Shown: positions 4,316-26,597 of the stretch, one piece after another
Position numbering within the stretch: position 1 is the stretch's first letter
Layout of the letters: the number at the start of each line of letters is the position of its first letter
Source of the DNA: a virus
DNA length: 30,494 bases
Direction: 5' to 3' (one strand)
IMG/VR virus record: IMGVR_UViG_3300042863_000176
Coordinates: 1-30,494 of that record
Program-made: the position numbers and the translations under genes
The notes under the pieces: generated by a model
Databases searched by the model: none
Told to the model about the DNA's origin: nothing
The model's input: the letters and a program-made list of their open reading frames with translations, nothing else

Positions 4316-4348
4316 TTCTAAGTCCTTTTCTTTACTGTCTAAGATTCT

Positions 4349-4377: not shown

Positions 4378-4586
4378 ATTTTGGCTATCAAACTAGCATG
4401 GATTTCGTTCATTTCCGACTGCTCTACATAGAAATCGGATCTAGGATCATAGTATTGGCCTTCACTGTTGTCATAATACAACACTCTTCCGGAGAAATTG
4501 AACGGTCCTTCTAATCCGTTACGTGGACCATATTTAGTACGCATGTCGTCCATTTGATACTTATCTGCAACAACTTTGTAACCCAT
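4374..4586 (-). CDS. Unknown 70-aa phage protein
   Basis: A small protein with no recognised domain; it is rich in Tyr and Asp (FSGRVLYYDN, GQYYDPRSDFY) and has no membrane segment. Start ATG has AAAGGG upstream at good spacing. Its TGA stop overlaps the -35 box of the next promoter, and its own promoter lies at 4614-4642. Size, promoter and place among other one-gene cassettes suggest an early host-takeover protein, which is inference only. Confidence 0.65.
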   Translation of the reverse strand: MGYKVVADKYQMDDMRTKYGPRNGLEGPFNFSGRVLYYDNSEGQYYDPRSDFYVEQSEMNEIHASLIAKI

Positions 4587-4613
4587 AAAGCCCTTTTAAC
4601 TGAATAAGACTCT

Positions 4614-4642
4614 ATTGTATAGCCAAATCCATTTAATGTCAA
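4614..4642 (-). promoter_or_regulatory. Promoter of the TTGACAWTAAAT family (70-aa gene)
   Basis: On the minus strand -35 TTGACA (4637-4642) followed by TTAAATGG, 17-base spacer, -10 TACAAT (4614-4619). The -35 begins 2 bases after the stop codon of the upstream gene (4645-4647). Confidence 0.8.
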
Positions 4643-4644
4643 AT

Positions 4645-5451
4645 TTAGGCTAATGACCAATTCAGTAACTGATAGTATTGTAATTCATCGTATTTTTTAG
4701 GATGGTATGTTCCTTCAATACGCAAATGTTCATTAGTAAACATTTTATCCCAAATATGTTTCAATGGATTCTTTGGTTCAATACTAATCATATGTGCATT
4801 GCCATTACTATTTTTTAACCAATATTCAAACTGTTTTGTACGTTTATTACTTTTATAAAAACTTGTTATAGGTGTCAATGTAGTGATTTGCTTAAGAGGA
4901 GGTGAATCAAAAGTAGCTAAGTCTAATTTAACTTCTCTTTTAAATGAATCAAATTTAACATCATACTCATAGAATTCAGGCAATCTAAAAATAATAGGTA
5001 ACAGTTCTTCTGTAATTTTTTTATCATTACCATGAATAAATGTATTTAGGTCTTGTCTATATTTTGATAGTTTAATACCTTTAAGAGACCATAACATAAT
5101 CTTTTTACTGAAGTAATCTCTAATTTCATTAGCACGAATTCTGTCAGATTCTTCTACCCTTCTGAACAAGTTATCATCTAAAAGGCTAGTGATACCCATG
5201 TAGTGTGTACTCTTATCCTTGTTATCACGTAGACGTTTCCATGCAACACTTAATGCTAATACATCTTCGGTTGATTCAATGACTTCATACCGTTTAACAT
5301 AGTCACTTCTATGGATGTTTTTAAATAAGCCATTAAGATAACTATCATCCATTGTAATAGATGAGGTTGATAATGGTGATATACTTAATCCAGTTCCACC
5401 ACCGGTACCGTTCAATGTTATTGTGTTACTACTGTATGTATTATTAGCCAA
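4645..5451 (-). CDS. Unknown 268-aa protein at the end of the recombination operon, TTG start
   Basis: I do not recognise this protein. Residues 1-33 are a low-complexity Ser/Thr/Gly/Asn segment; the rest is mixed helix and charged (about 36-180) with a basic end. The only workable early start is TTG at 5449-5451: the frame has a stop two codons upstream, and GGAGG lies about 9 bases before the TTG. The next ATG would remove 33 residues. It overlaps the uvsY stop by 8 bases, so it is read last in the operon with ssb, uvsX and uvsY. A recombination or replication accessory role is possible only by context. Confidence 0.7.
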   Translation of the reverse strand: MANNTYSSNTITLNGTGGGTGLSISPLSTSSITMDDSYLNGLFKNIHRSDYVKRYEVIESTEDVLALSVAWKRLRDNKDKSTHYMGITSLLDDNLFRRVEESDRIRANEIRDYFSKKIMLWSLKGIKLSKYRQDLNTFIHGNDKKITEELLPIIFRLPEFYEYDVKFDSFKREVKLDLATFDSPPLKQITTLTPITSFYKSNKRTKQFEYWLKNSNGNAHMISIEPKNPLKHIWDKMFTNEHLRIEGTYHPKKYDELQYYQLLNWSLA

Positions 5452-5905
5452 TTGTTATGTCCTCCATACCGGCTGCCCTCAATCTAACAATATGACCCAA
5501 CATAAAGTTTTTTGATTCTAGTGCCTTCATTATACCTAACCAACGATTTCTTAGTAATGCTACTTCATTGATAAGTGTTTCAAAATCTACTACTTCATCT
5601 TCACCATCAACATATTTTTCAGCATCACGGCTTGTCAATGCTCTATTATACGCTTCTAAGTATTTTTGAAAATGTTTTCGGCGAATTTTCCGTAATTGAA
5701 TGTTGAGATAGTTTAATACTGCTTCTATCTCTTGTAGTTGATTAAAACGATGTTCGGTTACTCCGGGTAATGCGGCAATGTTTTTTTCAACATTGCCGTA
5801 TACCTTTACCTCACTTTTTGCAGATAATAATTCATTCTCACAATGAGAGATGAAATCGGGTATCACAGCTAGATTAGTTGTGATCCTTGTGTACCAATTT
5901 GACAT
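5444..5905 (-). CDS. uvsY: UvsY-like recombination mediator
   Basis: 153 aa against 137 in T4. In T4, UvsY loads UvsX recombinase onto SSB-coated single-stranded DNA. The C-terminal part (LRNRWLGIMKALESKNF, then MLGHIVRLRAAGMED) lines up by eye with the end of T4 UvsY, and a basic KIRRKHFQKYLEAYNRA helix before an acidic GEDEVVD stretch matches the T4 pattern of a basic segment then DGDEF. The ATG directly follows the TAA of the acidic 82-aa gene. Its position after uvsX in an operon headed by ssb strongly supports the call. Similarity is moderate, hence not full confidence. Confidence 0.75.
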   Translation of the reverse strand: MSNWYTRITTNLAVIPDFISHCENELLSAKSEVKVYGNVEKNIAALPGVTEHRFNQLQEIEAVLNYLNIQLRKIRRKHFQKYLEAYNRALTSRDAEKYVDGEDEVVDFETLINEVALLRNRWLGIMKALESKNFMLGHIVRLRAAGMEDITIG

Positions 5906-6154
5906 TTAATCCCATTCTTCTTGGTCTTCGTCTTCATCATATTCTTCGTACTCTTCACCATCATGTTGGTCAGTATAACCTTTTAATGCTTTAAGTACTT
6001 CTTTGTCATTCTTAAAAGAATCTTTAATATCACTTGCTTCATAATTATTATCGATTAATAAATTAATCAACGTGTCGGCCGCATCGCTACGGTCATTGAA
6101 ATCAATATGAGTACGTAGTGCATCCCATATTTCTGCTGTAAAAGCTAAACTCAT
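5906..6154 (-). CDS. Small protein with extreme acidic C-terminal tail
   Basis: 82 aa. Residues 1-62 look helical (AEIWDALRTHIDFNDRSD, then DAADTLINLLIDNNY); residues 63-82 are almost all Asp, Glu and Tyr. No known family is recognised. It overlaps the uvsX stop by ATGA and touches the uvsY start, so it is made with both. Acidic tails in this setting can act as single-strand DNA mimics or as docking tails on SSB; here the phage SSB lacks a long acidic C-terminus, so a partner role is conceivable but unproven. Confidence 0.8.
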   Translation of the reverse strand: MSLAFTAEIWDALRTHIDFNDRSDAADTLINLLIDNNYEASDIKDSFKNDKEVLKALKGYTDQHDGEEYEEYDEDEDQEEWD

Positions 6155-7218
6155 TCTGTAATCTCCTCCTCAGGTGCTACAGTACTTATCTTTGTAGTTG
6201 ATTTTTGACCATATTCACTCATTACTGTATCTAAGCAACCGTCAGTATTTGCTTCCCATCCTTTACGAAACTTCTTAATGATTTCTCCATCAAGTGTTGT
6301 ATAGACTAATGAGTTACCTTCTTTCTTAACAAGTTCAGCCTTCTCAATCATATCTAGTAGACCTGAATAAGGGCTCATACCTGTTTCATACGGAATCTTA
6401 ACTTGTACAGATTCAAATGGTTTTGCATAACGAGTTTTCATAATCTTACATGCCGCACGAATACCTCGCACATCACTAATCTTATTACCATCTTCATCTT
6501 CTTTAAGTTTTAGTTTCTTCATAGCAACAACAATACTTGATGCGTAAACAAAACCTTGACCACCACTGATTTTATCATCTGGATCAAACATATCCTGACT
6601 TGCGTATGTGTGATTAGTAGCAACTAATCCAATGCCTAGTGAGCCAAACATGTTAACACAGTTACGAACAAGTGCTGTTAGTGCTTTAGGCTTACGACCC
6701 ATATCACCTTTCATATCACCTGCTTCAAACTGATTAACGTCAGTCGGTGTCAATAGCATACCTAAACTGTCAATCACAAACAATACCTTAGGACGATCTG
6801 TTTCCGGTAATGCTTTGTAATCTTTAACGAACATAGAAATAGTTTTTCCTACTTCGTCAATCATAGCCATGTTTAGTTTAAGCAACTTGTTGTCATCGGT
6901 TGATACACCAAGTGCGTGTAGCCATGCTTCGTCAAGGGCATTCTCTGAGTCAACTAAGACTACAAAGATTCCTTGTTCTTGTGCGTGTCTAACGAGGTTT
7001 CCTGAGCAGATGAACGATTTTCCTGCGCCTGATTCTCCGGCAAAGACAGTAACTTTACCAAGAGGAACGCCTTTATTAAAATCACCGCTAATGAGATAAT
7101 TGAGAGCATAATTTCCTGTCGAGATCCAGTCAGTAGGATCGTTAAATCCGATTGATAGACCTTCAATACTTTTTGTAATGTCCTTGCGGAACTTACTGAT
7201 ATCAAATGGTTTTGCCAT
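6151..7218 (-). CDS. uvsX: UvsX/RecA-like recombinase
   Basis: 355 aa. Strand-exchange ATPase that coats single-stranded DNA and drives recombination-dependent replication. Walker A GESGAGKS is at 61-68 and Walker B LFVIDS at 146-151; a short N-terminal segment (KSIEGLSIGFNDPTDWISTG) precedes the core, as in T4-like UvsX. The VATNHTY motif near 200 and GGQGFVYASS near 220 fit the RecA core. Start ATG has AAAGGA, which also overlaps the stop of the upstream 77-aa gene, giving coupling. It sits with ssb and uvsY in one operon. Complete by length and motifs. Confidence 0.93.
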   Translation of the reverse strand: MAKPFDISKFRKDITKSIEGLSIGFNDPTDWISTGNYALNYLISGDFNKGVPLGKVTVFAGESGAGKSFICSGNLVRHAQEQGIFVVLVDSENALDEAWLHALGVSTDDNKLLKLNMAMIDEVGKTISMFVKDYKALPETDRPKVLFVIDSLGMLLTPTDVNQFEAGDMKGDMGRKPKALTALVRNCVNMFGSLGIGLVATNHTYASQDMFDPDDKISGGQGFVYASSIVVAMKKLKLKEDEDGNKISDVRGIRAACKIMKTRYAKPFESVQVKIPYETGMSPYSGLLDMIEKAELVKKEGNSLVYTTLDGEIIKKFRKGWEANTDGCLDTVMSEYGQKSTTKISTVAPEEEITE

Positions 7219-8670: not shown

Positions 8671-10053
8671 TTAGATATAGGGTAATCCAATGATTTTGTC
8701 CAACATACGTGAATATGTCGTATCTAATGATTCACTTAATGGTAATTCTTCCTGATGTGATAGTTCAACAGGTTGTTTAAACAATGCCATTTTGACGATT
8801 GCCAAATAACTATCCATTTTTTGTTTAGTAATGATAGGATCATTACTATCAAATATTCTTTTTAGATACCAGGCTTCTTCCTGTAGCTCATACGATATTT
8901 GACCATCACCGTATGTGGGTTGTTTTCTGGATAATTCTCTAGCGTATGTAGATTTGAACAGTTTCATTAGTACTATTAGGTTTCTATCCATCCAAGCATT
9001 AAATTCCGGATCATTCCAATCTTTATATATGATAGGTTGTTGTTCTGTTAATTGTGTTGATTCCAATTGCATATCAACGTATCTACCTTTAGCCAACTCA
9101 GGATTTTGTTCCAAGTCTTGGAATTTACTAGGATTAGTTTTTGCTTGAGTTTGAGCAGTTGATATAACATCCTGTGTTTTATCTCTAGCAGTACTATACA
9201 TGTCTTTCATTACACTTACTATTTTGTTGATATCCTCTGCATCCTGTTGAACACTTGCTCTTAAGTCTAGCATGGTATCTTTTTCTTGTTTCATAAAGTC
9301 ATCAAAACCTTGAATTTTATCTTTATATGTATCAATGATGTTTGCGTATTTTTTCATATCCTCAGCATGTTGTGATTGCATGCCGGTGATCTCACCCTTT
9401 TTCTTATCAATGTATTTTGAGAATCTACCTTCTTTTTGATCCAATGCTGTTTGTGTATCTTTTAATTGTTCTTTAACTTTAGCGTATAGTTTAGTGCTAA
9501 TAGTCTTTTGTTTTTCTAATATTGATACTAAATCTTTAATCTTTTTTAAATCTTTATCATCAAATGAGGGATTAGAAGTTATCTGTATTATTTCTCTCTT
9601 TACTTCTTTTGTTTGTTGTGGATCCATACCTGGTTTAGGTTGTATCATTTCCACCGATTTATTAAAATTTTGTATTTCGTCTGCACTTACCTTTGCCTTA
9701 CGTTTTGTAACAGGCATATCTTGTTTTATGTTACCGCTCAGTTGTTTTAGTCTATCAACTTCACGGTCTGTCTCTTGTGATTGTCTTTCAAAATCTTGTA
9801 ATTCTTGACCCAAATCATCAACTACACTACGTAAACGGGCATTCTCCCGTTTTTGTGTATCAATTAATTTATTTTGATTTGAATCTACCTTGTCTTTTTC
9901 TGTCATCTCATGGGCAATATACAATGACAATGCCTGCTGTGCATCATAACCGGGATATCTAGTCCTAGCTTTATATATTAAATCCTTATCTACTGGTAGG
10001 GCCTTAACCGTACCACTATCGATATTTTCATTTAATAATGCATTAATCTTCAT
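8671..10053 (-). CDS. Long coiled-coil protein with capsid-targeting-like N-terminus
   Basis: 460 aa, no enzyme motif. It starts MKINALLNENID, in the same style as two small proteins at 14706 and 15077; LNE followed by N fits the (I/L)xE cleavage rule of the T4 prohead protease, weakly. Residues 50-120 and about 150-310 are charged heptad-rich coiled coils (for example ENARLRSVVDDLGQELQDFE). The C-terminal 130 residues are a globular helical region with NAWMDRNLIVLMKLFKSTYA. It lies directly after the 752-aa gene downstream of the terminase, and its start has TTAGGT. A virion or head-assembly role is inferred from position and N-terminus; other roles remain open. Confidence 0.75.
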   Translation of the reverse strand: MKINALLNENIDSGTVKALPVDKDLIYKARTRYPGYDAQQALSLYIAHEMTEKDKVDSNQNKLIDTQKRENARLRSVVDDLGQELQDFERQSQETDREVDRLKQLSGNIKQDMPVTKRKAKVSADEIQNFNKSVEMIQPKPGMDPQQTKEVKREIIQITSNPSFDDKDLKKIKDLVSILEKQKTISTKLYAKVKEQLKDTQTALDQKEGRFSKYIDKKKGEITGMQSQHAEDMKKYANIIDTYKDKIQGFDDFMKQEKDTMLDLRASVQQDAEDINKIVSVMKDMYSTARDKTQDVISTAQTQAKTNPSKFQDLEQNPELAKGRYVDMQLESTQLTEQQPIIYKDWNDPEFNAWMDRNLIVLMKLFKSTYARELSRKQPTYGDGQISYELQEEAWYLKRIFDSNDPIITKQKMDSYLAIVKMALFKQPVELSHQEELPLSESLDTTYSRMLDKIIGLPYI

Positions 10054-10066: not shown

Positions 10067-12325
10067 TTACTTATTCAACAAACGCTTAATAGCATCTAAA
10101 TCTTCTTGACCTTCACCAACTAAATCACCAATTGTTGCTGGCTTGTGTGCCTTAGGTCCTTTGTTACGCCATTGTCCTGCTTCACCTGTAGCATAATCAC
10201 CTGCGAACTCACCATCTTCTGCTACTTCTTCTTTACTGCTATACTTAGCACGTATATTTTGCATTTTCTTTTCGCTAGCATGGTCTTGTCCGGCTTTGCG
10301 TAATGCATCCATACCGTCTTTGCCATACTTCTTATCACCTAAGTATGCTTGTAGTGCGCTTTCTTCAACTTCATCTTCTTCAATGGTGTTCATGCGTTTC
10401 TTCAATGCGGACATGCCAGCTGAACTTGTCATATTCTTCTCATCAGCTTTAGCTAAATCTTGTGTAGTAACTTTCCAGTCACCGCCTTTTTCTTTACGTT
10501 GTGCGGCGGGTGTGTTGATTTTCTGATCGGCTTGTTGTGCTGGATCTAATCCTTCTTCTTTAAAGATACCCAAATCTTTTCCACCCTTCATAAAATTACC
10601 AGCCGGGTCACTAGGATTATCACGTGCTAGTTCTTTTGCCTTAACGTCAAACTCGGGCTTTTTTCCAGTAACCTGTACACCGGCTGATTTTTGTAAATCT
10701 CTAATTAGGTCTTCTTCACTACCGCCACCCAATTTGTCAAATACTTTACTACCAACTTTCTTAACAGTATCCATGATACCTTCATCTAAATCATCTTCAG
10801 GTAGTACGCCTTTAGGTCCACCACGCATACGATATGGACTACTTGCCTTCATGGTATCCATACGGGCCTTGCCCAACGTTCCTTTTTTACCCTTCTTATC
10901 AGTTTTATACAAATCATCAGGTCCGGCTAATTCTCTGCCACCTAGTGTGTCAAAATTAGGTTTTTTACCACCCCAACTAGGATAACTATTACCACCACGT
11001 AATGCTTTCATAGCATCACCTATAGAATGGAATGTATCATCAACGTCTACATTATTCTCGCCATCCTGGTAATGAACTTCAATTTCACCAGTCTTCAAGT
11101 TATGTTCAATACTTCCACTAGCATAATAACCACCTTCACCATCATCATACTCATATTTTTCTATGTTAGGATCAAACGATTTTTCTTCATGCCAACTAGA
11201 CCAGCTACCACCTAACGACTTAAGTGCTAGCCCTAGATCGCCTTGACCTAATGGCCCTTTACCTTCAGGAACACCAATTGGATTAATAGCTTGTTGACCG
11301 CCGTCACCCTCTTCTAAATCAGATTCAGTTAAACTATCAGCCCATTCGCTTAATTCATTAACTTCTTTCATCTCAGCTACTTTCTTGTGTAGCTTATTCA
11401 ATATTGGCATTACACTTTCAATACGTGGATCTAATGTTTCTTGTACAAACAACTCATTCAAATTGTTTTCTTCCGTATCATCTTCCATTAATGGTGGAGT
11501 ATATGATTCAAAATAACTATTGTAACCACGTGAACCACGCATCTTGCTTAATGATTCTCTTAAACTCTGGTAGTGATTGATACCTTCATTAACTAACTGT
11601 TGTGCTGATTCGTTGAACTGATTGTTACGTGTAGCACGAACAAATGCACCCATCTTGTTATATTCTTCACATAAGCTACCAATATGATTCCAACGGTCAT
11701 CATGTGGTAAACCACCTTCAGCTAAATGACGAGCATATATCTGAGCAATACCTGGCTTAGTTGTAGGGGCAAGAATTCTTTCACCTTGTGTATTCTCTAA
11801 GAAGATACGGTTTACATTACGATAACGTTGTTCACCTTCTTCAATTTGACGACTATGTTCAATAACAATTTTAACTGTTGGAATATTGTCATTATAACTA
11901 GCTTTCTTACCCATTGGATAGTAGCCTTCTGATATTCTTTCTTGCTTTTTCATATGTTCCCTTTTTGCCATATCATATTTTAAATGGTCTCTGTTTTTAA
12001 CTTCAAAACTTAATTGGTGTTGCTGTGCAAAACGCTTTAAATGATTCAATAGTTTATACCATGAATCGTCGCCGCTAGCAGATACTTCTTTTTCACTATT
12101 AGCAACATCATCACCAAAATAAATTACTAATTTATGTAATCCATCAATAGATGCTGTTACTGTACCGTATTCTTCTCCGTCTTTAGTAAACTTAAACTGA
12201 AAGACTTCTGCTTCTTCAGGAACTGGAATTTCCTTACCTGAAGTGTCTAATAGTGTAGGAGCATATCCTCTACTACGTAATAGCTCAAATAATGAGCGGT
12301 TGATTGATTCTTGATTTTTAGCCAT
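10067..12325 (-). CDS. Large multi-domain probable virion protein
   Basis: 752 aa, function not recognised. Residues 1-120 form a mixed alpha/beta domain. Residues 130-290 contain VKIVIEHSRQIEEGEQRYRNV and RATRNNQFNESAQQLVNEG, which I recall from conserved unannotated proteins of T4-like environmental phages. Residues 370-460 are a Gly/Asp-rich beta stretch, and the last 250 residues hold low-complexity Lys/Gly linkers and a helical motif AYLGDKKYGKDGMDALRKAG. Several (I/L)xE sites could be cut by a prohead protease. It follows the terminase. There is no Shine-Dalgarno at usual spacing; GATAAATA ends 4 bases before the ATG, so a leaderless late transcript is likely. Confidence 0.78.
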   Translation of the reverse strand: MAKNQESINRSLFELLRSRGYAPTLLDTSGKEIPVPEEAEVFQFKFTKDGEEYGTVTASIDGLHKLVIYFGDDVANSEKEVSASGDDSWYKLLNHLKRFAQQHQLSFEVKNRDHLKYDMAKREHMKKQERISEGYYPMGKKASYNDNIPTVKIVIEHSRQIEEGEQRYRNVNRIFLENTQGERILAPTTKPGIAQIYARHLAEGGLPHDDRWNHIGSLCEEYNKMGAFVRATRNNQFNESAQQLVNEGINHYQSLRESLSKMRGSRGYNSYFESYTPPLMEDDTEENNLNELFVQETLDPRIESVMPILNKLHKKVAEMKEVNELSEWADSLTESDLEEGDGGQQAINPIGVPEGKGPLGQGDLGLALKSLGGSWSSWHEEKSFDPNIEKYEYDDGEGGYYASGSIEHNLKTGEIEVHYQDGENNVDVDDTFHSIGDAMKALRGGNSYPSWGGKKPNFDTLGGRELAGPDDLYKTDKKGKKGTLGKARMDTMKASSPYRMRGGPKGVLPEDDLDEGIMDTVKKVGSKVFDKLGGGSEEDLIRDLQKSAGVQVTGKKPEFDVKAKELARDNPSDPAGNFMKGGKDLGIFKEEGLDPAQQADQKINTPAAQRKEKGGDWKVTTQDLAKADEKNMTSSAGMSALKKRMNTIEEDEVEESALQAYLGDKKYGKDGMDALRKAGQDHASEKKMQNIRAKYSSKEEVAEDGEFAGDYATGEAGQWRNKGPKAHKPATIGDLVGEGQEDLDAIKRLLNK

Positions 12326-12346: not shown

Positions 12347-13894
12347 TTAGCTTATAACCGCAAAGAAGGGCAACGGAGCTATATACTCATCGTGGTCACG
12401 AATCTGTGTCTCTAAATTCACATGATAATCACTTAAATGCTGTAACATTCGTGTCACTAATAGACTAGCCATAATCAAATCATCCGTGTCACCAATTTTA
12501 GCGGCATAACTACCACCATGTGCTACAAATGCTTTTAATTCACTTATAAGACTACGACTATTTACAGTCATTTTCTTACTTTCAACCAATGTTTTAAACT
12601 TGGCACAACTTGCTAGTTTACTTTTATTAGTAGTATTGAATCCTCTACGGCCTTTACCTGCTTCACTAATAAAGATACCCGAAATGTTGCTTTCTCCATA
12701 TTCATTTAATGATATGATAGCGGCTTCTCCTATACCATTACATTCAATACTATAATAGATGTTGTTGGGTTCGTTAGTACATTCTGCTATATATTTGTTT
12801 ATCTGTGCCAATAGTTTGATTTGACTTGGGATATCAGTTTTATTATGTTTCCATTCACCTACTTGTGTAGTGGTGTTTGCTTCATAGATTTGAATAGCAG
12901 CAGGGTCACCACCTGTACCTAAACTTGGATCTAGTCCTACACAATATATATTACCCTTCTTTGGCTTCTCATACCAACGAACTTGGCCTATACGACTTAC
13001 AGGTTCAATACCTTCCATCATTAATAATGTGTTTGGATTAATCAATGTCTCGTCAGCAATAATGAACTCACAACCAATCTCTCGGTTGAAACGATCCTCA
13101 CCAAGCTGTGCTTTCATTTCATCAGCCCACTTTTGGTCTCGTCCTGGTTGCTCATTCCAGAATGCTCTATATGCTCTGAATCCGTTTACACCTAGTTCAG
13201 TTGTATTACCAAACTCATCTTCAGTCTTGTTGGCGCCCTTCCAGATGAACGCAAATTGATCCTCGTCACTGTTTGGGGTGCTAGTGATAATAGCTTTACC
13301 ACCAGTAGATAGTGTTGGGGTGATAGCTGTCCAGAATTCTTTAGCGATACTTGGTCTAACGAATGCAAACTCGTCTAAGTATAATAGTGTAATAGACATA
13401 CCACGACCTGTATTTTCAGTAGTTGTGGCACTTACAATACGACTACCGTTCTCAAAATCTAATGATCCTTTATTATATGTTGTTACACCTGCTTTAATGT
13501 GATCAGGGCAGTTTTCATATGCATAACGAATACGTTGCATAATCTCCTGAGCACCTGTATATTTGTGTGCCGCAACTAAGATAGTACTGTCTGGTACAAA
13601 CATTGCATACCAGAGTAAGTAACCAGCCGCTGAAGTTGATTTGCCTGACTGTCGAGGCATCAAACTGATTGAATAACGATAGTTATGATATGTTTCAATC
13701 AATCGTTTTTGATAGGGCCACGGATGATAAACCATACTACCCTTTGTAGGGTGTTGAATCATAAAGAAGTTATCCATAAAATATAGATAACCCGTATCTG
13801 GGTCACAGCATTTAATAAAATCCTGTAGTTCTTTGTCAGTTTTGAAAACTGTTTTAGTATAAGGATTTTTTACTAATGAAGGTGCATTACTCAT
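12347..13894 (-). CDS. Terminase large subunit (gp17-like)
   Basis: 515 aa. The motor and nuclease that cuts concatemers and pumps DNA into proheads. The ATPase half has Walker A PRQSGKS (80-86), Walker B LLYLDEF (170-176) and the coupling motif STPNS (205-209). The nuclease half begins at VGLDPSLGTGGDP (319-331), with Asp322 as the first metal ligand, and a later acidic TDDLIMASL near 477 supplies another. Length is somewhat below T4 gp17 (610 aa), mainly at the N-terminus. TATAAATA, the exact T4 late consensus, ends 6 bases before the ATG and there is no Shine-Dalgarno. No small terminase subunit is recognised next to it. Confidence 0.95.
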   Translation of the reverse strand: MSNAPSLVKNPYTKTVFKTDKELQDFIKCCDPDTGYLYFMDNFFMIQHPTKGSMVYHPWPYQKRLIETYHNYRYSISLMPRQSGKSTSAAGYLLWYAMFVPDSTILVAAHKYTGAQEIMQRIRYAYENCPDHIKAGVTTYNKGSLDFENGSRIVSATTTENTGRGMSITLLYLDEFAFVRPSIAKEFWTAITPTLSTGGKAIITSTPNSDEDQFAFIWKGANKTEDEFGNTTELGVNGFRAYRAFWNEQPGRDQKWADEMKAQLGEDRFNREIGCEFIIADETLINPNTLLMMEGIEPVSRIGQVRWYEKPKKGNIYCVGLDPSLGTGGDPAAIQIYEANTTTQVGEWKHNKTDIPSQIKLLAQINKYIAECTNEPNNIYYSIECNGIGEAAIISLNEYGESNISGIFISEAGKGRRGFNTTNKSKLASCAKFKTLVESKKMTVNSRSLISELKAFVAHGGSYAAKIGDTDDLIMASLLVTRMLQHLSDYHVNLETQIRDHDEYIAPLPFFAVIS

Positions 13895-13957: not shown

Positions 13958-14653
13958 TTACTTAATATCTAATGGTCGTTGTTTAGTAGCAACTACACAA
14001 TAGTATTTTTCTTTCATTTCTAATGGCTTATCAGCATCTGCTGGATTGGGAGCATTTAAATCAAACTCAAAATTGTCAAACTTATTGATAGAAAATCCGG
14101 TACGTTCTAATAGTGCAGCCAATTGTTGCTCACCTAAGATACTATAATGATTTAGATTCCATTCATGTCGGCGATCTGTATCTGGGGCAGGAACTTCGAT
14201 ATAAATCTTACCACCTTGTTTTAATATACGATTGTATTCCATTAAACTAAAGATAGGATATGGACTATGCTCTAGTGCATGACGTAAAAAGATAAAATCT
14301 ACACTTTCATCAAAATATCCTTCTTTTTGCGGCAAAAAGCTTAAATCATATGTTTTAATAGTATGACCTTTACTTTCACATATTTTGATATCACCAGGAC
14401 TTAGTGTAACGCCGATAACATCAGTGTAACCTCGTTCCTTCATCTCATCTAAGAAATAGCCAGGGCCACAACCCAAATCTAAGATTTTACTAGCTTTAGG
14501 TAGATCCATTGGATCAATATATTGTTTAATAACTTGAGAAGTTAGTTGTTTATGAAACTGACTGTCACCTTCTTCATAAATATGAGCAGTGTAAAGCCAT
14601 TCGTTATAGAATTTAAGTTTAAGTAAGTCTAGTGTGTTGTTGATATCAATCAT
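13958..14653 (-). CDS. Class I SAM-dependent methyltransferase
   Basis: 231 aa. The SAM-binding motif ILDLGCGPGYFLDEM is at 57-71, followed by an acidic strand end and an FIFLRHALEHSPYP stretch near 125-138 typical of the Methyltransf_11/23 small-molecule or sugar type. No DNA-methylase DPPY/NPPY catalytic motif is present, so DNA adenine or cytosine-N4 methylation is unlikely. Start ATG with AGGATT. It is isolated from terminase by a terminator. The substrate cannot be read from sequence; the sugar enzymes further upstream (17348-20503) make a glycan or sugar-nucleotide substrate one possibility. Confidence 0.85.
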   Translation of the reverse strand: MIDINNTLDLLKLKFYNEWLYTAHIYEEGDSQFHKQLTSQVIKQYIDPMDLPKASKILDLGCGPGYFLDEMKERGYTDVIGVTLSPGDIKICESKGHTIKTYDLSFLPQKEGYFDESVDFIFLRHALEHSPYPIFSLMEYNRILKQGGKIYIEVPAPDTDRRHEWNLNHYSILGEQQLAALLERTGFSINKFDNFEFDLNAPNPADADKPLEMKEKYYCVVATKQRPLDIK

Positions 14654-14705: not shown

Positions 14706-15080
14706 TTATTTTCTTTTGTAACCTTTAAAGGGTTTAACAGTACTTTTAATATTTGTACTATCCAATTCTTTACTTTTTAAGTCGCCCTTATTTAAATCGT
14801 GATATTCTGATCCTGCCGCTTTATATGCCATCATTAACATATCACTTTCTTGTTGTGTATAGGGTGCGGCAACATCGTATCTTCCAGCCCAACTTTCACT
14901 ATCTATGTCTGGTATAAAAGTTCCATCAGTTGAGGCAGCAGCCATCATTATTCTATTCAATTCATATATACGGTCGGCTGCATTTTCATCACGGAACTTA
15001 TGCAGGCCTTTTGTAGACATTTGTTTTCTATTTCCTATTTTTCCGATTTTAGCTTCGGATATAAATTCATTTGCTCTCAT
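14706..15080 (-). CDS. Small putative internal head protein with capsid-targeting N-terminus
   Basis: 124 aa. The first residues MRANEFISEAKIG closely parallel the T4 internal proteins, whose MKTYQEFIAE peptide targets them to the prohead core and is cut after (I/L)xE by the gp21 protease; here the site would be ISE followed by Ala. The middle has AAASTDGTFIPDIDSESW, and the C-terminus KPFKGYKRK is basic. It shares both ends with the next gene upstream, from which it is read by an ATGA overlap and whose final codons provide the AAAGGA Shine-Dalgarno. Role in the virion and possible injection with DNA are inferred. Confidence 0.78.
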   Translation of the reverse strand: MRANEFISEAKIGKIGNRKQMSTKGLHKFRDENAADRIYELNRIMMAAASTDGTFIPDIDSESWAGRYDVAAPYTQQESDMLMMAYKAAGSEYHDLNKGDLKSKELDSTNIKSTVKPFKGYKRK

Positions 15081-15481
15081 CTTTTATATCCTTTGAATCC
15101 TTTAATTGGCGACTGAGTTAATGTATCATCCATCTCATCACTTCCAGGAGTACTTACCATTTTCTTACCGGATTTCCCAACTTTCTTTAATGCTTGGTCA
15201 ATAGTTTTACCAAGTTCTTTATCAAACTCAGATGACACAACTTGATGTTCTCCCCAACTACTTTCTGCCCTAAACTCCGGCTCAAATCCATTCTTTACAT
15301 TATCGTTGCCACCTTCGCCCCTTACTGCGGCAATCGCTACACCAAAACGATATAAATCGTAGAAGTCATTGTTCTTTAACTCTGGAATAACATATGTGTT
15401 AGGTAGGGACATAGTTGCTAAATCTAAGCCATCGTGTACTTTACTCAATGTTGTTTCAGTAATAAATTCTTTTGCTCTCAT
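15077..15481 (-). CDS. Small putative internal head protein, paralogue by its tags
   Basis: 134 aa. Begins MRAKEFITETTLSK and ends IKGFKGYKR, matching the N- and C-terminal tags of the 124-aa protein downstream, while the middle is different (VIPELKNNDFYDLYRFGVAIAAV, then a Gly/Asp-rich loop). ITE followed by Thr fits the T4 prohead-protease rule less well than Ala would. The ATG overlaps the TAA of the upstream virion-type gene by one base, and the stop overlaps the next ATG, so three genes are tightly coupled. Conserved tags with different codons point to selection on the peptides. Function inferred as for the neighbour. Confidence 0.78.
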   Translation of the reverse strand: MRAKEFITETTLSKVHDGLDLATMSLPNTYVIPELKNNDFYDLYRFGVAIAAVRGEGGNDNVKNGFEPEFRAESSWGEHQVVSSEFDKELGKTIDQALKKVGKSGKKMVSTPGSDEMDDTLTQSPIKGFKGYKR

Positions 15482-16326
15482 TAAGATTCCGTTGTTAATA
15501 TCAAATCAGTTTCAGTACCCAACAGATATCCACTAGCATATCCGTCCAATGCTATCTCATCGCCGGTTGTAGGAACTACGTTTGGATAAGTAACTACTGC
15601 TGAGATAAAATGTTCTAGTACAACATTTACTATAGGATTAATTAATACTCTAACATTGCCGCCTGATACGTCCATGTCATAACGACAAATATAATTACCC
15701 TGGAATAGTGTTGAATGACCACTGAATCTAACCCCTGCTAAATTATTAGTAATAGATGAACTAAGTGTAATATCCTGCATGTCAGGAGTTCCTGGATCAC
15801 TTGAACGAATTTGAAATTGGCCCTGATAAAATTGTGATGTGGGAATTTCAAATATTACTTGGTTTGGCGCGTTTCCTACAGTGTAGGATGTGGAAATAAG
15901 AGTAGTAGTAAGGAATAAATTACTGAAGTTATTATTAATTTTATTAAAAGCTACACGTAATGGATCACCATTACCGTCATTTGCTGTTGCACCAATATTA
16001 ATATATTCTTGGTCACCATATGGTCCGGTTGATAACTCTAATGGAGTAGGAACACTTAATGGCGTACTAGGAGTAATTGTAAGACTTGATTTACTATCGA
16101 ATGTGTTAGTAATATAAACATTACCGATGTTAAGCGTATTTGTATTACCAGTTGAAGTCTCAGTGGTGTTGTTAAATGGATCTACTATTTCTACTAATTC
16201 ACTATTACTTCCGGTTAATGTAAACAGGTTGGCAAAATTATTATTAATTTTGTTAAAAGCTTCACGTAATGGATCACCACTACCGTCATTTGGTAAGCTT
16301 CCTGTATCAATAATTTCCTGCGTCAT
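15481..16326 (-). CDS. Virion-type protein with duplicated NDGxGDPLR motif
   Basis: 281 aa from the ATG at 16326, which has AGGA at good spacing; an ATG further upstream at 16389 is in frame but lies within the preceding lipoprotein gene and is rejected. Two copies of a motif, NDGSGDPLREAFNKINNNF (about 13-31) and NDGNGDPLRVAFNKINNNF (about 115-133), are followed by NLF. This motif is common in structural proteins of T4-like marine and freshwater phages. The C-terminal half is beta-rich (ITLSSSITNNLAGVRFSG). Late octamer GATAAATA lies 22 bases upstream. Likely tail, baseplate or fibre-associated; exact position in the particle unknown. Confidence 0.8.
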   Translation of the reverse strand: MTQEIIDTGSLPNDGSGDPLREAFNKINNNFANLFTLTGSNSELVEIVDPFNNTTETSTGNTNTLNIGNVYITNTFDSKSSLTITPSTPLSVPTPLELSTGPYGDQEYINIGATANDGNGDPLRVAFNKINNNFSNLFLTTTLISTSYTVGNAPNQVIFEIPTSQFYQGQFQIRSSDPGTPDMQDITLSSSITNNLAGVRFSGHSTLFQGNYICRYDMDVSGGNVRVLINPIVNVVLEHFISAVVTYPNVVPTTGDEIALDGYASGYLLGTETDLILTTES

Positions 16327-17347: not shown

Positions 17348-18307
17348 TTATTTATGCTTCTTATGTTGTATCATATCCAAAGTGCAATCACATTTATTTC
17401 GGGTACATTCAACTGAGGTAGTTGCGAATAGAATTTCATCATAAATCGACCATTTTTGTCCCTCTCCGCATATTGCCCGTTGTATAGTATCATGTGATAT
17501 GCGTATGAACTTTTTACCTGCATCACAAAGATAACCGTTAAAATTATCTTCCCCTCGCTTTATAAAATTGATAGCATGATCCTTTTTAGTTGATCCGTCA
17601 CTATAGGTAAACTGTAGTTGTCCGCTGTGATATGTATATTTTGGTGGTATATTAGATTTTGGTTTATTATGATATGTTGGGGTTACTTTATTGCTATGTA
17701 GTAACAACAGCTTTATCTGATTTTCAGAATACTTAGACATTCCAAATTCATCATTTATTTGCTGTAGGTTAATCAATGTGGGACAACTGTTGTATATTTT
17801 ATAAAAGGATTCTACAGCTACGTCAAAATATTTAGGAACACAAGTTATATTTGTCGTAACTACTGTGTCAATATCTTTAAAAACATTAATTACATCTATG
17901 ATATGATTTACATCTGCGTTTTGTTCAGGGTGCATACTTACTGCAATAAAATCAACACAGTTAGCTTCTTTTAACTCTTCCCAATAACGTAATGTCCTTG
18001 AACCATTTGTGATGATATATGTGAAGTTACCTGTACTTTTAATAAACTTTAATAGTTCTATTAACTTAGGATACAGTGTAGGTTCACCACCAGTAAGTTT
18101 AAACCAAACTTTTTTATCACCGCTTTGTTCTATTAATCTTTTACATGTGTCGATGTATACATTAATGTCTAAATATTTCTTATCACCTGATTTAAATTCA
18201 TCTGAACAAAAACTACAATCATAGTTACATGTATTTCCCAACATCCATTCAACTAAGTTATATTGTTGGTCTGTAACTGATGTTACTGTTAACGGGAATT
18301 TATTCAT
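17348..18307 (-). CDS. Radical SAM enzyme with C-terminal cysteine cluster
   Basis: 319 aa from the ATG at 18307 (a TTG one codon earlier is less likely). The 4Fe-4S site CNYDCSFC (C27, C31, C34) and the SAM-binding GGEP motif (73-76) are intact. The C-terminal 80 residues carry more cysteines (YLCDAG, RAICGEG, VECTRNKCDC), suggesting a SPASM or twitch-like auxiliary cluster. Such enzymes modify peptides, sugars or nucleosides. It begins 3 bases after the aminotransferase stop and belongs to the same run as the epimerase, so a role in making an unusual sugar is plausible. QueE-like activity is unlikely because the CxxxCxxC enzyme is longer and the queuosine partners are absent. Confidence 0.88.
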   Translation of the reverse strand: MNKFPLTVTSVTDQQYNLVEWMLGNTCNYDCSFCSDEFKSGDKKYLDINVYIDTCKRLIEQSGDKKVWFKLTGGEPTLYPKLIELLKFIKSTGNFTYIITNGSRTLRYWEELKEANCVDFIAVSMHPEQNADVNHIIDVINVFKDIDTVVTTNITCVPKYFDVAVESFYKIYNSCPTLINLQQINDEFGMSKYSENQIKLLLLHSNKVTPTYHNKPKSNIPPKYTYHSGQLQFTYSDGSTKKDHAINFIKRGEDNFNGYLCDAGKKFIRISHDTIQRAICGEGQKWSIYDEILFATTSVECTRNKCDCTLDMIQHKKHK

Positions 18308-18310
18308 CAA

Positions 18311-19366
18311 CTATTTATAGAATGAATGCACTTTGCTTGCAATATATTCTACTTCATTGTCATTTAATTCTGGATATAAAGGAAGACTTAATACTCCCCT
18401 GGACAATAATACACTATTGCTCAATAGGTCAGGTTTGGATAAATCCTTGCCAATTGGCAAATCACCTAATACGTATTCATAATGTACTTTACTATCAATA
18501 CCATCAGATGATAAATGAGTATGTAAACTATTGCGATCGGATAGATACATTACAAACTTTTGATGTGCATGCGGATCTTTGGTATCAGATAAACAATTTA
18601 ATGGTAAATCTTTAAAACTATCACACCAATACTTAGCAATAGTTGCTCTACGTTTTTGCCATTCATCAATGTACTTTGCCCTGACTAGAATTTGAGCACA
18701 ATCTTGCTCACTCATCTTACTATTAGTACCGGCGTTATAGAAGTAAGGTTTGTTATTATCTCTATAACTTGACGCATAGAGATATAGTTTTTCATCATTG
18801 GTTACGATGGCACCACCGTTACCTGAACTAGGTAAATTCTTTGTGGGGTCAAAACTGATTGACATTCCTCCACCTACATCACCGTCAGCTACTAACCAAT
18901 GTTGTGCTCCGTCGACTATTACTCCATATGCATCTGGGTAAATAGCGTTAGGCCATGGCTTACGCCCTGCAAAGCCCATCAAGCAATCATATACGCCGGC
19001 ACTGTTCCCCATTTTAATGATACCATTCTTATCAGTATCAATCAACTCAACATCCCATTCAGCAGTTAAGAATGCATTCAATGTTGCAGGATATGTTATA
19101 TTAGGTATACGAATCTTTGGATTACCCTCCATAGTATCACTATGTTTAATCTTTTTCCAACGGGCAATAATCTCTAATGCTTGTGTACCTGAATGAACAG
19201 TTATAGCATATTTTGTTTTGGTGCGGTGTTTAAGCCATTCTTCAAATGACCGAGTATAATGTCCGCCTACTAGTCTCCCGTCTTTTAGAGCACGGTCAGT
19301 AGCATCTAGTAATTCATCTCTTAAATTACTGTACTGTCTTTTTAGACCGAAGTGAGAAATTTGCAT
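18311..19366 (-). CDS. DegT/DnrJ/EryC1-type sugar aminotransferase
   Basis: 351 aa. PLP-dependent enzyme that usually converts nucleotide-keto-sugars to amino sugars. N-terminus GLKRQYSNLRDELLDAT, then LVGGHYTRSFEEWL and HSGTQALEI (58-66) follow the family pattern; VDGAQH (151-156) corresponds to the PLP-binding Asp region and K176 in FDPTKNLPSSGNGG is the probable Schiff-base lysine. Length is slightly short of the usual 370-390. Its ATG lies inside the preceding 70-aa gene (41-base overlap). With the adjacent epimerase and radical SAM enzyme it suggests a short sugar-modifying pathway. Confidence 0.9.
   Translation of the reverse strand: MQISHFGLKRQYSNLRDELLDATDRALKDGRLVGGHYTRSFEEWLKHRTKTKYAITVHSGTQALEIIARWKKIKHSDTMEGNPKIRIPNITYPATLNAFLTAEWDVELIDTDKNGIIKMGNSAGVYDCLMGFAGRKPWPNAIYPDAYGVIVDGAQHWLVADGDVGGGMSISFDPTKNLPSSGNGGAIVTNDEKLYLYASSYRDNNKPYFYNAGTNSKMSEQDCAQILVRAKYIDEWQKRRATIAKYWCDSFKDLPLNCLSDTKDPHAHQKFVMYLSDRNSLHTHLSSDGIDSKVHYEYVLGDLPIGKDLSKPDLLSNSVLLSRGVLSLPLYPELNDNEVEYIASKVHSFYK
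18312..18319 (-). promoter_or_regulatory. Late-promoter-like TATAAATA inside the aminotransferase stop
   Basis: The final codons TAT AAA TAG of the aminotransferase spell TATAAATA, 4 bases from the radical SAM ATG. It may be a real late promoter or a coincidence of coding sequence. Confidence 0.3.
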
Positions 19367-19538
19367 TTTTTGCCCATTCTATATAACCACCGTTACTAAC
19401 AGACCACGGACAATATTGTTCCCATAACGCATTTGATTGGTCAGTATGTTCTTTCATCAACTTGTCTACATTGACTCTGGATTTATATCCGTCTAGAGTC
19501 CAATCGTGTGCTTTTAATGCAGTTTCTAATTCATTCAT
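19326..19538 (-). CDS. Unknown 70-aa protein between epimerase and aminotransferase
   Basis: No known domain. Notable residues are ALWEQYCPWSVSNGGYIEWA (about 38-57), rich in Trp and with one Cys, a pattern suggestive of a small folded domain. It starts on the ATGA of the epimerase stop and runs 41 bases into the aminotransferase gene, a long overlap for a phage operon. The overlap and coupling support that it is translated. It may be an accessory protein of the sugar enzymes; nothing in the sequence proves this. Confidence 0.6.
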   Translation of the reverse strand: MNELETALKAHDWTLDGYKSRVNVDKLMKEHTDQSNALWEQYCPWSVSNGGYIEWAKNANFSLRSKKTVQ

Positions 19539-20503
19539 TTTATTTTATCCTGCCAGTAACTTGATGTACTAAGCCATTTATAATATTTTTCAAATCCTTC
19601 TTCTACATCTACCTTAGGATCATATCCAAAGTCTCTACGAGCGGCATCAATGTTTAATGCACCACGACTAGGGAAGTCTTTGTCTTTATCTTTAACTACC
19701 AGAGTTCCACCACCAGCTAGTTTTAATGCTAGTTGTGCGGCTTCTAACAATGTACGACTGTGGCTTTTTGTAATGTTGTACGTTTTGTTATATGTGTTAT
19801 CACTTAGTGCTGCCGCAACAATGCCATCTGCGGCATCATCAACATAGGTGAAGTCTAATGTTTCGTTTGCACCATTTACATTTAGTGTGCCGCCACGCAT
19901 TGCGGTAAGCATAAACTTAGCAATAACACGATCCTCAACATCTAATTCACCGTATACAGCACTAGGACGAATGATAGTATGACTAAAACAACCACGACGG
20001 CTATAATCTTCTACTAACCGTTCTCCGGCCAATTTCATAATGCCATACTGTCCTTGTGGCTTACAGTTATAATCTTCTGTTACGTCATCTGTAAAATCAC
20101 CGTATACCATTGAACTACTGATATAAACAAATTTCTTTATTTCATGCTTCTTACTAACTTCACACAAATTCAATAGACCTTCCATCATTGTTTTTGCTCC
20201 CATAGTTGGATTAAGATTAACAACTTTTTGTCTCGGGAAGCTAGCCATATGAATTACAATATCAAACTTGTATCGACCAAATAACCAATCAATACTTTCA
20301 CTAGAAATGTCAATCGCATGGATACTGCCGGGTTGAATTTTTTTCAACCTTTCTGTCATTAGATAGTCAATCTCATCTTGCAGGATAATACCGTAGTTAG
20401 TTCGTATATCGGTAATAGCAACAGTATGCCCCATACGTTGTAATCTATCTACTACGTTATGTCCAATAAGTCCTAATCCGCCCGTAACTAATATATTACT
20501 CAT
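19535..20503 (-). CDS. NAD-dependent epimerase/dehydratase (extended SDR)
   Basis: 322 aa. Nucleotide-binding GGLGLIG (8-14), an Asp at the end of strand 2 (TDIRTN), ISSSMVYG (128-135) and catalytic YGIMK (Y153, K157) define an extended short-chain dehydrogenase like UDP-glucose 4-epimerase or a 4,6-dehydratase. The C-terminal part includes TYVDDAADGIV and an AARRDFGYDPK end typical of the family. Substrate is unknown, presumably an NDP-sugar. It overlaps the upstream 111-aa gene by 8 bases and the downstream 70-aa gene by 4, so it is part of one coupled operon leading to the aminotransferase and radical SAM enzyme. Confidence 0.9.
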   Translation of the reverse strand: MSNILVTGGLGLIGHNVVDRLQRMGHTVAITDIRTNYGIILQDEIDYLMTERLKKIQPGSIHAIDISSESIDWLFGRYKFDIVIHMASFPRQKVVNLNPTMGAKTMMEGLLNLCEVSKKHEIKKFVYISSSMVYGDFTDDVTEDYNCKPQGQYGIMKLAGERLVEDYSRRGCFSHTIIRPSAVYGELDVEDRVIAKFMLTAMRGGTLNVNGANETLDFTYVDDAADGIVAAALSDNTYNKTYNITKSHSRTLLEAAQLALKLAGGGTLVVKDKDKDFPSRGALNIDAARRDFGYDPKVDVEEGFEKYYKWLSTSSYWQDKIK

Positions 20504-23858: not shown

Positions 23859-23964
23859 GTTTTGATAATGTTTCCAATGCTCCGGATAGTAGTCTAATAA
23901 AAATATACAAGACTACTCCCAGTACCACTACGATAAAGCCATAGCCAAGTATATCTAATATCAT
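23848..23964 (-). CDS. 38-aa single-span membrane peptide
   Basis: MILDILGYGFIVVVLGVVLY begins a 38-residue peptide with one strong membrane segment (about 4-26) and a short polar end ETLSKHDD. It begins on the ATGA of the VWA/metallopeptidase stop and ends 11 bases inside the next gene, filling the only gap in this operon. That exact fit on both sides is strong evidence that it is a real gene although very short. It may anchor or signal for the MoxR-VWA proteins, or act as a small membrane toxin or lysis helper; the sequence does not decide. Confidence 0.7.
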   Translation of the reverse strand: MILDILGYGFIVVVLGVVLYIFIRLLSGALETLSKHDD

Positions 23965-25247
23965 GCTTTCACTGGCTCATCATAAATTGCATATGTACCA
24001 AACGGGGGATTAGGATTCTTATCACCATGAATGATCCATGTTGTATCACAATAATCTGCATCACCCCAACTACCACAGGGATAACCATCAGTAAACACAA
24101 TCAATCGTTTTGGATCGATAGCATTATCTTTCAAGTACTTGAAGATACAATCAAAATCAGTACCACCGCCGCCCATGGGCTGATATTCTTCAATCAGGTC
24201 CATGTTCTCACTACTGAAGTCTTTGGGGTTGTATGTGTCAGTATCAAAACAAAATACATGAACCTTGTAACCATCAAAGCTGTTCATCATGCCGCCGATC
24301 TCACCCAAGAACGCTTGTGCTTGACTGTTGCTAATTGAACCTGACATATCGATAGAAACAACTACATCAATTTCTTCACCGGGATTCATGCCGGGCATGA
24401 TAGCATCCATGTGCCAACCTCTACGTGAAGGACGCATCCAACTGTAATCTGAACGAATAGCACTAGTCAAATTCGTTTGAATTAAGTCACGCCAAGGCAT
24501 AACTGGGTTAGTATGTTGACGAATCAATCGTTCGACACCGAGGGGTAACTGGCCAGCTTCTGCACTACTTGCGGCATTGATAATAGCTTGCTTAACTTCC
24601 TGACGTACACGTTCACGTTCCTCAGGTGTCATTGTGGGACGCTTACCTTTGCCTTCACCATTACCTTCATTATCACCCTCACCATCGCCTTCATCATCCA
24701 TGTGGTCATCAATCATCTGATCCAGCAAATCTTCAATAGAGATTTTCTGAACATTCTTCATCAAGTCATCATAGATTTCTTCAGCCGCTTTACCATCATA
24801 CTTTTGCTCATATAAGCAAGGTACTGTCTTAATAAACTCACCCACTTTATGACGTTTCAAATCTGCATTAACTGCATAGTCATCAGCAATATTCCAGATC
24901 TCAGGATCACGATTACCTCTACGACCCATGTGGTCATATACAACGTGTAACACTTCATGTCCAACTAAAAACTCAACTTCTTTAGGCTTCAACATCATAA
25001 TGAAGCGGCTATTGTAATAGAATTTCTGACCATCAGTTGCCGCTGTACTACACCATAGATCAGCATTAATCAATTGCATACGAGTAGCAAGATTGCCAAA
25101 GAATGAATGACGTAATAGTAAACCAATACGTGCGGTAACTAATTTTTCACGTGCTTGATAGTCAATCTTACTATCTGTAGGTCCTACAAGATTCTCAAAT
25201 TTCTTACTGCGACTACGTTTTTTACTGGGATTAATTACTTCACTCAT
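23961..25247 (-). CDS. VWA-like protein with metallopeptidase domain (DUF2201/COG3864 type)
   Basis: 428 aa. Residues about 30-165 form a predicted metallopeptidase domain: HEVLH at 97-101 (HExxH zinc motif) followed by NIADDYAVN (119-127). A very acidic Asp/Glu/Gly linker (180-200) leads to the VWA-like domain, which holds a complete MIDAS: DMSGS (300-304), GGGGT (Thr363) and TDG (386-388). This architecture is known from predicted metal-dependent peptidases that are encoded beside MoxR ATPases. Here MoxR lies upstream, separated by a 50-aa gene. AAGGACC Shine-Dalgarno and its own family promoter. Probably works with MoxR in remodelling or cleaving a host or phage protein. Confidence 0.88.
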   Translation of the reverse strand: MSEVINPSKKRSRSKKFENLVGPTDSKIDYQAREKLVTARIGLLLRHSFFGNLATRMQLINADLWCSTAATDGQKFYYNSRFIMMLKPKEVEFLVGHEVLHVVYDHMGRRGNRDPEIWNIADDYAVNADLKRHKVGEFIKTVPCLYEQKYDGKAAEEIYDDLMKNVQKISIEDLLDQMIDDHMDDEGDGEGDNEGNGEGKGKRPTMTPEERERVRQEVKQAIINAASSAEAGQLPLGVERLIRQHTNPVMPWRDLIQTNLTSAIRSDYSWMRPSRRGWHMDAIMPGMNPGEEIDVVVSIDMSGSISNSQAQAFLGEIGGMMNSFDGYKVHVFCFDTDTYNPKDFSSENMDLIEEYQPMGGGGTDFDCIFKYLKDNAIDPKRLIVFTDGYPCGSWGDADYCDTTWIIHGDKNPNPPFGTYAIYDEPVKA

Positions 25248-25273
25248 ATTGGTCCTTTAGTGTTTATGTGTCT

Positions 25274-25302
25274 ATTGTAGCACATTGTATATTTAATGTC
25301 AA
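25274..25302 (-). promoter_or_regulatory. Promoter of the TTGACAWTAAAT family (VWA/metallopeptidase gene)
   Basis: On the minus strand -35 TTGACA (25297-25302), then TTAAAT, 17 bases to -10 TACAAT (25274-25279). The TGA stop of the 50-aa gene (25299-25301) is inside the -35 box. Confidence 0.8.
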
Positions 25303-25451
25303 ATAGACAAGCCACGATATCCTGCATCAAATGCAATACGTGCGTAATCCTGTGCGGATTCAATAGCATACAAGGCCATTCCTTGATCCTTTGTCATGCC
25401 TTTTGCTCGGACACTTTGTCCTAGTGCATAAAAATATTTCTTACCTGTCAT
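25299..25451 (-). CDS. Unknown 50-aa protein between MoxR and VWA genes
   Basis: MTGKKYFYALGQSVRAKGMT begins a 50-residue protein with no membrane segment and two likely helices (KDQGMALYAIESAQDYARIAF). AAAGGA lies at good spacing before the ATG. It sits right after the MoxR terminator, so it needs readthrough or an unseen promoter, and its stop is embedded in the next gene's -35 box. Position suggests an adaptor for the MoxR-VWA pair, but this is only context. Confidence 0.65.
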   Translation of the reverse strand: MTGKKYFYALGQSVRAKGMTKDQGMALYAIESAQDYARIAFDAGYRGLSI

Positions 25452-25463
25452 AATTTTCCTTTT

Positions 25464-25490
25464 AAAAAAGGGTGAGCATTACACTCACCC
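25464..25490 (-). terminator. Rho-independent terminator after MoxR
   Basis: On the minus strand GGGTGAG, 7-base loop, CTCACCC, then six T: 7 perfect pairs. It lies 7 bases after the MoxR stop and directly before the Shine-Dalgarno of the 50-aa gene, so it may act as a leaky attenuator. Confidence 0.88.
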
Positions 25491-25496
25491 ATAAAA

Positions 25497-26597
25497 TCAA
25501 TTACCTGCGTCTACAATGTACTTGCCATACTTCTTATGGAAGTCATCAAAATTCTTCAACTGACTTGGTTCGATCGGCAACTTGTATGTCTTAAGTGCAA
25601 TCTTTGCACCCATAACAACTAATTCAGTCTCAAAGTTTGCCATGATATAGCTAAAGAAGTTATCAGCCATTGTGTGAAATTCTTTGCTAGAAACTTTCTT
25701 TGTTTCTAATGCATCACGCAATTCATAGCACATTGAAATTGTCAATGAATACATTGCCGAGATTTCTTTAACTGCAAGGTCCTTGACTTTGCCTGATAAG
25801 ATATCACTTGGCTCGGGCATACGACCTGCAATCTTGCGGTGTGCCGCAAACTTAACAGCAAGACCTTCACCAACAGCACCTGAAATCAAATTGAACAATG
25901 TATCACTATCTGTATCATCTTCATCATTCAACAAGTCACTAACGAAACACCATGATCGGGGTGTAGCGAATGCACGACTTGATGATTTACCATCAAACTC
26001 ATACAAATCCTGTTTAGCAAAACTCAGATAACCCACAACGTCTTTGTGAATAGCTTTGTTAACAGCCCAGTTTTGCCATGCAGTAAAATCGGCTCTCATT
26101 TCTAAGTGTAAGAAACGATTAGCGAGGGGCATCGGCATACGATATGTAACACCTTTGTCACTATCACGATTGCCTGCCGCAACAATAACAACGTTATCAG
26201 GCAATACATACTTACCAACTCTACGATTAAGAATAAGTTGATAACCTGCCGCTTGAACTGCAGGGCTTGCACTATTCATTTCATCTAAGAATAGAACAAC
26301 GATCGGGTATTGACTAGCAAGTTCCTCATCGGGCAAATCTACTGGTGCCGCCCAATCCATTTTATTGATATCACGATTGAAGTATGGGATACCACGAATA
26401 TCTGTAGGCTCCATTTGTGCCATACGCAAGTCAATCATATGACCGCCGAGTTCTTCTGTAACTTCTGCTACAACTTCACTTTTACCGATGCCGGGAGGTC
26501 CCCACAAAAATAAGGGACGTTTTGCTTTAAATGCCTTTAGCATTGCTTTACGGGCCTGAACTGACGTAATTGTCAGATTATCTGATACTGATGCCAT
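25497..26597 (-). CDS. MoxR-type AAA+ ATPase
   Basis: 366 aa. Walker A GPPGIGKS (33-40), Walker B VLFLDEMNS (101-109), sensor-1 region VVAAGNRDSD near 138-147 and the arginine-finger stretch MPLANRFLHLEM near 155-167 are all present, so it should be an active chaperone-like ATPase. The family typically acts with VWA-domain proteins encoded nearby to insert metal cofactors or remodel complexes; the partner here is the VWA/metallopeptidase protein at 23961. AGGAGC Shine-Dalgarno; two tandem promoters lie upstream and a terminator directly downstream, giving strong separate control. Confidence 0.9.
   Translation of the reverse strand: MASVSDNLTITSVQARKAMLKAFKAKRPLFLWGPPGIGKSEVVAEVTEELGGHMIDLRMAQMEPTDIRGIPYFNRDINKMDWAAPVDLPDEELASQYPIVVLFLDEMNSASPAVQAAGYQLILNRRVGKYVLPDNVVIVAAGNRDSDKGVTYRMPMPLANRFLHLEMRADFTAWQNWAVNKAIHKDVVGYLSFAKQDLYEFDGKSSSRAFATPRSWCFVSDLLNDEDDTDSDTLFNLISGAVGEGLAVKFAAHRKIAGRMPEPSDILSGKVKDLAVKEISAMYSLTISMCYELRDALETKKVSSKEFHTMADNFFSYIMANFETELVVMGAKIALKTYKLPIEPSQLKNFDDFHKKYGKYIVDAGN

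Follow-up and report, generated by a model that had tools for sequence, protein, structure and literature searches.

The window, a 30.5-kb fragment from an IMG/VR virus record, encodes two adjacent small proteins, A and B, which we interpret, from their sequences and by analogy with phage T4, as conserved, translationally coupled, paralogous internal head proteins shared by a large clade of uncultured T4-like phages, probably targeted and trimmed by means of a T4-type capsid-targeting sequence (CTS) and probably entering the host in their mature forms; we put the probability of this reading at roughly three in four. The window derives from a T4-like phage, with genes for a T4-type terminase large subunit (TerL) and for UvsX/RecA-like and UvsY-like proteins. 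The features discussed below are collected in Table 1.

Table 1. Features of the window discussed in the text
Feature	Coordinates	Strand	Remarks
gp9/gp10-N-like baseplate/tail-fibre protein	15481..16326	-	Pfam T4_gp9_10_N 1.9e-10
ORF A, 134 aa	15077..15481	-	MRAKEFITE...SPIKGFKGYKR; family A of tandem pair
CTS-like N-tag of A	15455..15481	-	MRAKEFITE; predicted cleavage after E9
C-terminal motif of A	15080..15103	-	KGFKGYKR; conserved end of A/B superfamily
ORF B, 124 aa	14706..15080	-	MRANEFISEA...STVKPFKGYKRK; family B
CTS-like N-tag of B	15054..15080	-	MRANEFISE; predicted cleavage E|A
C-terminal motif of B	14709..14735	-	KPFKGYKRK
Methyltransferase, downstream of B	13958..14653	-	
TerL, T4-type	12347..13894	-	
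Head/packaging-type virion protein	10067..12325	-	PHROG 13484
Coiled-coil-like protein, 460 aa	8671..10053	-	second CTS-like start, MKINALLNE (tag 10027-10053)

The coordinates and both termini of A and B are as the initial annotation had given them, and their start codons were checked as well. The start of B overlaps the stop of A as ATGA, and a -4 overlap is found at 214 of 239 A-B junctions in the relative loci; both genes are present in 202 of the 270 relative loci retrieved (some of the loci behind both counts overlap one another). Among the IMG/VR candidate stretches, at least 139 contain relatives of B and at least 316 relatives of A. Positions M1, R2, F6 and E9 are invariant in family A, while family B has invariant M1 and E9 and nearly invariant R2, A3, E5 and F6. 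The net charge of the predicted mature protein is -2 for A and +4 for B.

The gp9/gp10-N-like gene, whose probable start is MTQEII and whose TAA stop overlaps the ATG of A, is the upstream neighbor of A in 181 of 226 loci. On the other side, the methyltransferase gene lies downstream of B in 162/198 loci, the pair is followed by TerL in 134 of the 141 loci that extend far enough to reveal it, and a head/packaging gene of the PHROG 13484 type is kept near the pair in 96/101. A and B belong to a virion-gene cluster adjoining TerL. The late promoter TATAAATA is not enriched in the window (2 occurrences found vs 4.8 expected). Elsewhere in the window, visual inspection indicates consecutive radical-SAM-like, DegT-aminotransferase-like and NAD-epimerase-like genes at 17348-20503, possibly a sugar/modification cassette, and a vWA-domain-like protein adjoining a MoxR-like AAA ATPase at 23961-26597. 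Two proteins composed of tandem repeats of ~40–50 aa (KAIFGYG...TNLVSNTGVV...GTAR), possibly tail-fibre repeats, are encoded at 27445-29676, and a similar repeat protein occurs beside a tagged ART-like gene in locus L473 (182-1132).

Searches for relatives of A and B outside their own families were essentially negative. TBLASTN against cultured phages including T4 (50,697 phage records) gave no match, Pfam gave none for the two window proteins, and a PHROG scan of 94 members of the A/B families returned a single weak match. No convincing fold or sequence relative was found in PDB, BFVD, Pfam or PHROGs, and the comparisons with PDB and BFVD revealed no recognizable enzymatic fold. AlphaFold models of both proteins (mean pLDDT 81–82, pTM only 0.54–0.57) consist mainly of a few helices and long loops. 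Homology to T4 IPI, IPII or IPIII outside the tag was likewise absent according to TBLASTN against the same cultured phages.

The N-terminal tag is not a chance resemblance. A DNA scan of the whole collection for MRAxEFIxE found at least 120 stretches, and among the matches listed 127 of 143 fall at the first ATG of an ORF; the permuted control MARxFEIxE was found in 23 stretches collection-wide, with 9 at a first ATG, and many of the control matches are copies of a few recurrent sites. In 0.65 Mb of sequence from relatives, MRAxEFIxE stands at six ORF starts, against no match for 359 permuted motifs. A looser version of the motif occurs in all 15 tagged large contigs, up to eight times per genome; of the five control contigs three lack it altogether and the other two have one MQRNEFIAE site in common. 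None of the 20 large contigs contains the reversed pattern. In 142 contexts the tag is encoded by 140 different DNA sequences, which use synonymous codons interchangeably (AGA/CGN, four Ala codons, GAA/GAG, three Ile codons), and conservation falls sharply directly after E9, in a sequence set where the seven fixed tag positions were imposed by the search pattern itself. Such codon diversity together with the drop in information after E9 is what one would expect of a removable propeptide selected at the protein level. The window contains no third MRxxEF-tagged ORF.

In T4, the ten-residue CTS MKTYQEFIAE acts in targeting mainly via residues 4 and 7 and in processing via residues 8 and 10, with gp21 cutting after (L/I)xE (PMC9026906). 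The likeness of MRAKEFITE and MRANEFISE to this peptide, noted in the initial annotation, is borne out at the relevant sites: the tag keeps the equivalents of F7 (targeting) and of I8 and E10 (processing) of IPII/IPIII. The gp21-like protease expected elsewhere in the genome is found in relatives; in the window, which covers only 30 kb, neither a prohead protease nor a head operon is present. The relatives encode gp20, core proteins, an S77 protease (gp21), gp22 and gp23 in the T4 order. Across the HP and GVSSRG motifs, with the conserved His and Ser, their protease shares 34% identity with T4 gp21. In their gp23, LAE|S or LKE|N directly precedes the mature shell domain, and gp67/gp68-like genes adjoin gp21, with A and B far from that operon. 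Among contigs of at least 120 kb, S77 occurs in 12 of the 15 that are tagged and in three of five controls, so that its co-occurrence with the tag is not discriminating and was discarded as proof of a CTS role: most of the tagged contigs have the protease that such a role requires, but this is no demonstration of it. A tagged 157-kb contig without S77 also lacks every head gene tested, and we therefore regard it as a fragment.

By analogy with T4, the first nine residues (MRAxEFIxE) would dock A and B, like the other tagged proteins, into a gp22-type prohead core, where a gp21-type S77 protease would cut after the glutamate of (I/L)xE and thereby remove the tag. The mature A and B, of 115–125 aa, would then remain associated with the packaged DNA and probably pass into the host along with it; their injection seems plausible on the T4 precedent. 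Many other, unrelated cargo proteins of these phages carry the tag too.

The FKGYKR end calls for a different explanation from the one first proposed, namely a two-tag system for different cargo proteins with unrelated middles. The matching C-termini are real and, as described, written with different codons, but the cores that they flank prove to be related: after 11 N-terminal and about 13 C-terminal residues had been trimmed from the family profiles, hhalign aligned the cores of A and B over 95 columns with a probability of 98.3% (E 2.1e-14), and the whole families with a probability of 99.9 (E 3.9e-33). The same landmarks follow in the same order in both families: Y-x3-R, S-x-x-G or WxG, Y(T), an A(Y/L)K helix, SxE, and S(P)xKxFKGYKR. 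A and B are diverged tandem paralogs, conserved near TerL in many loci of uncultured phages; their common C-terminus was inherited with the domain, since the cores are homologous and the landmarks collinear. When the collection was scanned for FKGYKR followed by a stop, 107 stretches were recovered; all real ORFs found with this end start with the N-tag and look like members of the A/B superfamily, while the others are chance matches in tiny frames. No unrelated cargo bearing FKGYKR turned up among the genuine ORFs, which rules it out as a portable second sorting tag and argues that it is part of the protein family.

The other half of the proposal, a modular N-tag common to unrelated cargo, stands. 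MRxxEF(I/L/V)xE starts about 389 distinct proteins, which after removal of the tag fall into 33 unrelated clusters, from loci for which the tag itself had been part of the selection. Domains found behind the tag include GNAT, Kinase-PolyVal, the phrog_15752 kinase, ART-PolyVal, ADPrib_exo_Tox, DUF6321, GH19 and ParB_N, and several of these cargo proteins resemble host-modifying enzymes. Lytic domains of the GH19/LysM kind occur in some of the tagged proteins; the endolysin-like GH19 domain, which is no obvious head cargo, is present in at least seven (among them those at 10705-12975 in L470, 1164-2540 in L246, 707-2077 in L290 and 10886-12310 in L241). Several tagged proteins also resemble one another at the C-terminus, in a basic segment containing Cys, KRR(K/S)xxCAR...RRWNC (e.g. 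L241 9789-10886, L268 3736-4026 and L225 6548-6838); a segment of this type also ends g34 of S-CRM01, a gene adjoining TerL.

Some observations count against A and B as internal head proteins: A is not basic, the pair is conserved instead of hypervariable, and GH19 occurs on tagged proteins. The conservation of the pair and its synteny near TerL in most loci, unlike the variable internal proteins of T4, together with the lack of a recognizable enzymatic fold, could indicate a structural role for A and B in the prohead core, similar to that of T4 gp67/gp68: they would then be required for assembly of the head and be cut up or lost, instead of being retained there as cargo and injected. We consider this unlikely, as the relatives already possess gp67/gp68-like genes next to gp21, from which A and B are distant, as a single conserved LxE site at the extreme N-terminus fits trimming and not digestion, and as enzyme-like cargo bears the same tag. 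Somewhat less probable still is that the tag directs proteins elsewhere in the virion (tail or baseplate) or to another complex and that its likeness to the T4 CTS is coincidental. The lytic domains on some tagged proteins and the position of A directly after a gp9/10-like tail gene would suit such sorting; the match at the mapped targeting and processing residues, combined with the S77 protease in relatives, and the sharp loss of conservation after the LxE glutamate, which fits protease trimming, speak against it. Phage genes often share short recombination seams, and on this general ground the common start could be a DNA- or RNA-level element, such as a recombination site or translation enhancer, and not a protein signal. 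The mixture of synonymous codons among the distinct DNA sequences encoding the tag refutes this idea, to which we assign practically no weight.

Within the preferred reading of A and B as internal head proteins, their being conserved beside TerL, and not variable, suggests that they may serve a housekeeping role (interaction with DNA or the core) instead of one in an arms race. On a broader scale, we lean slightly towards the view that MRxxEF(I/L/V)xE and its variants are a general address label with which uncultured T4-like and jumbo phages, a very large group of them, load dozens of unrelated effector families into their heads, with A and B as a conserved, perhaps housekeeping, member.

The principle of a CTS combined with a prohead protease is already known from T4, where Alt, an ART, is among the internal head proteins and has an N-terminal propeptide (PMC9026906). 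As in IPI, IPII, IPIII and Alt, the proteins described here are small, start with a short peptide (~10 residues in T4) ending in EFIxE or (I/L)xE, and include an ART among the cargo, and an S77 protease gp21 and a gp22/gp23 head operon are found in relatives. They differ in the tag consensus, MRAxEFIxE, in the absence of any sequence relation of A and B to the T4 internal proteins, in that the latter are basic and variable whereas A is not basic and A/B form a conserved coupled pair, and in a much wider cargo repertoire. In phage P1, the N-terminal signal of the Dar protein DarB is likewise enough to direct cargo to the capsid, from which it is delivered (PMC9024508), but Dar N-termini possess neither a shared consensus nor a T4-type LxE tag. 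SPN3US gp53 and gp54 are head-protein paralogs with an identical N-terminal propeptide that contains prohead-protease sites (PMC5694885); they resemble A and B as diverged paralogs with a conserved N-terminus, although their propeptides exceed 100 residues, the specificity is AxE, and no short modular tag extends across many families. Finally, enzymatic domains of polyvalent proteins thought to be injected with phage DNA (ART-PolyVal, Kinase-PolyVal) occur among the tagged proteins, here as single proteins behind a short tag and not as parts of one giant protein. We found no open-access paper that describes the MRxxEF tag or how environmental phages use it.

If our reading is right, A and B represent a family of proteins that is abundant but unannotated and is encoded beside the packaging terminase, and a nine-residue motif offers a means of predicting the proteins injected by thousands of uncultured phages. 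Because the tag looks like the capsid 'postal code' of T4, it may reveal which proteins are packed into heads and injected into bacteria. The injected proteome of uncultured phages could then be deduced directly from their sequences, and an old question, that of the T4-like internal proteins, would become testable outside E. coli phages.

Other CTS-like starts were also encountered. The coiled-coil-like protein of the window is a further candidate for head cargo or a core component, as the N-terminus of its listed homologs is conserved as MKIxxL(L/F)xE; the broad pattern MKIxxLLxE is rare in large genomes (4/20 records), and hence this variant seems less general. In the cultured Alishewanella phage vB_AspM_Slicko01 (OQ508956.1, L430), eight consecutive genes at 939-6609 are annotated as hypothetical; most of them start near MKIxxLYESxLEE and the last starts MKIYNLYSTLLEA. 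The tag-like starts precede ART-like (YHST/FHAT, by visual inspection) or kinase-like sequences. Judged from these sequences, the region shows an apparent effector operon with its own CTS-like tag, built on the same principle with a different start, which would make Slicko01 a cultivable phage that uses this principle.
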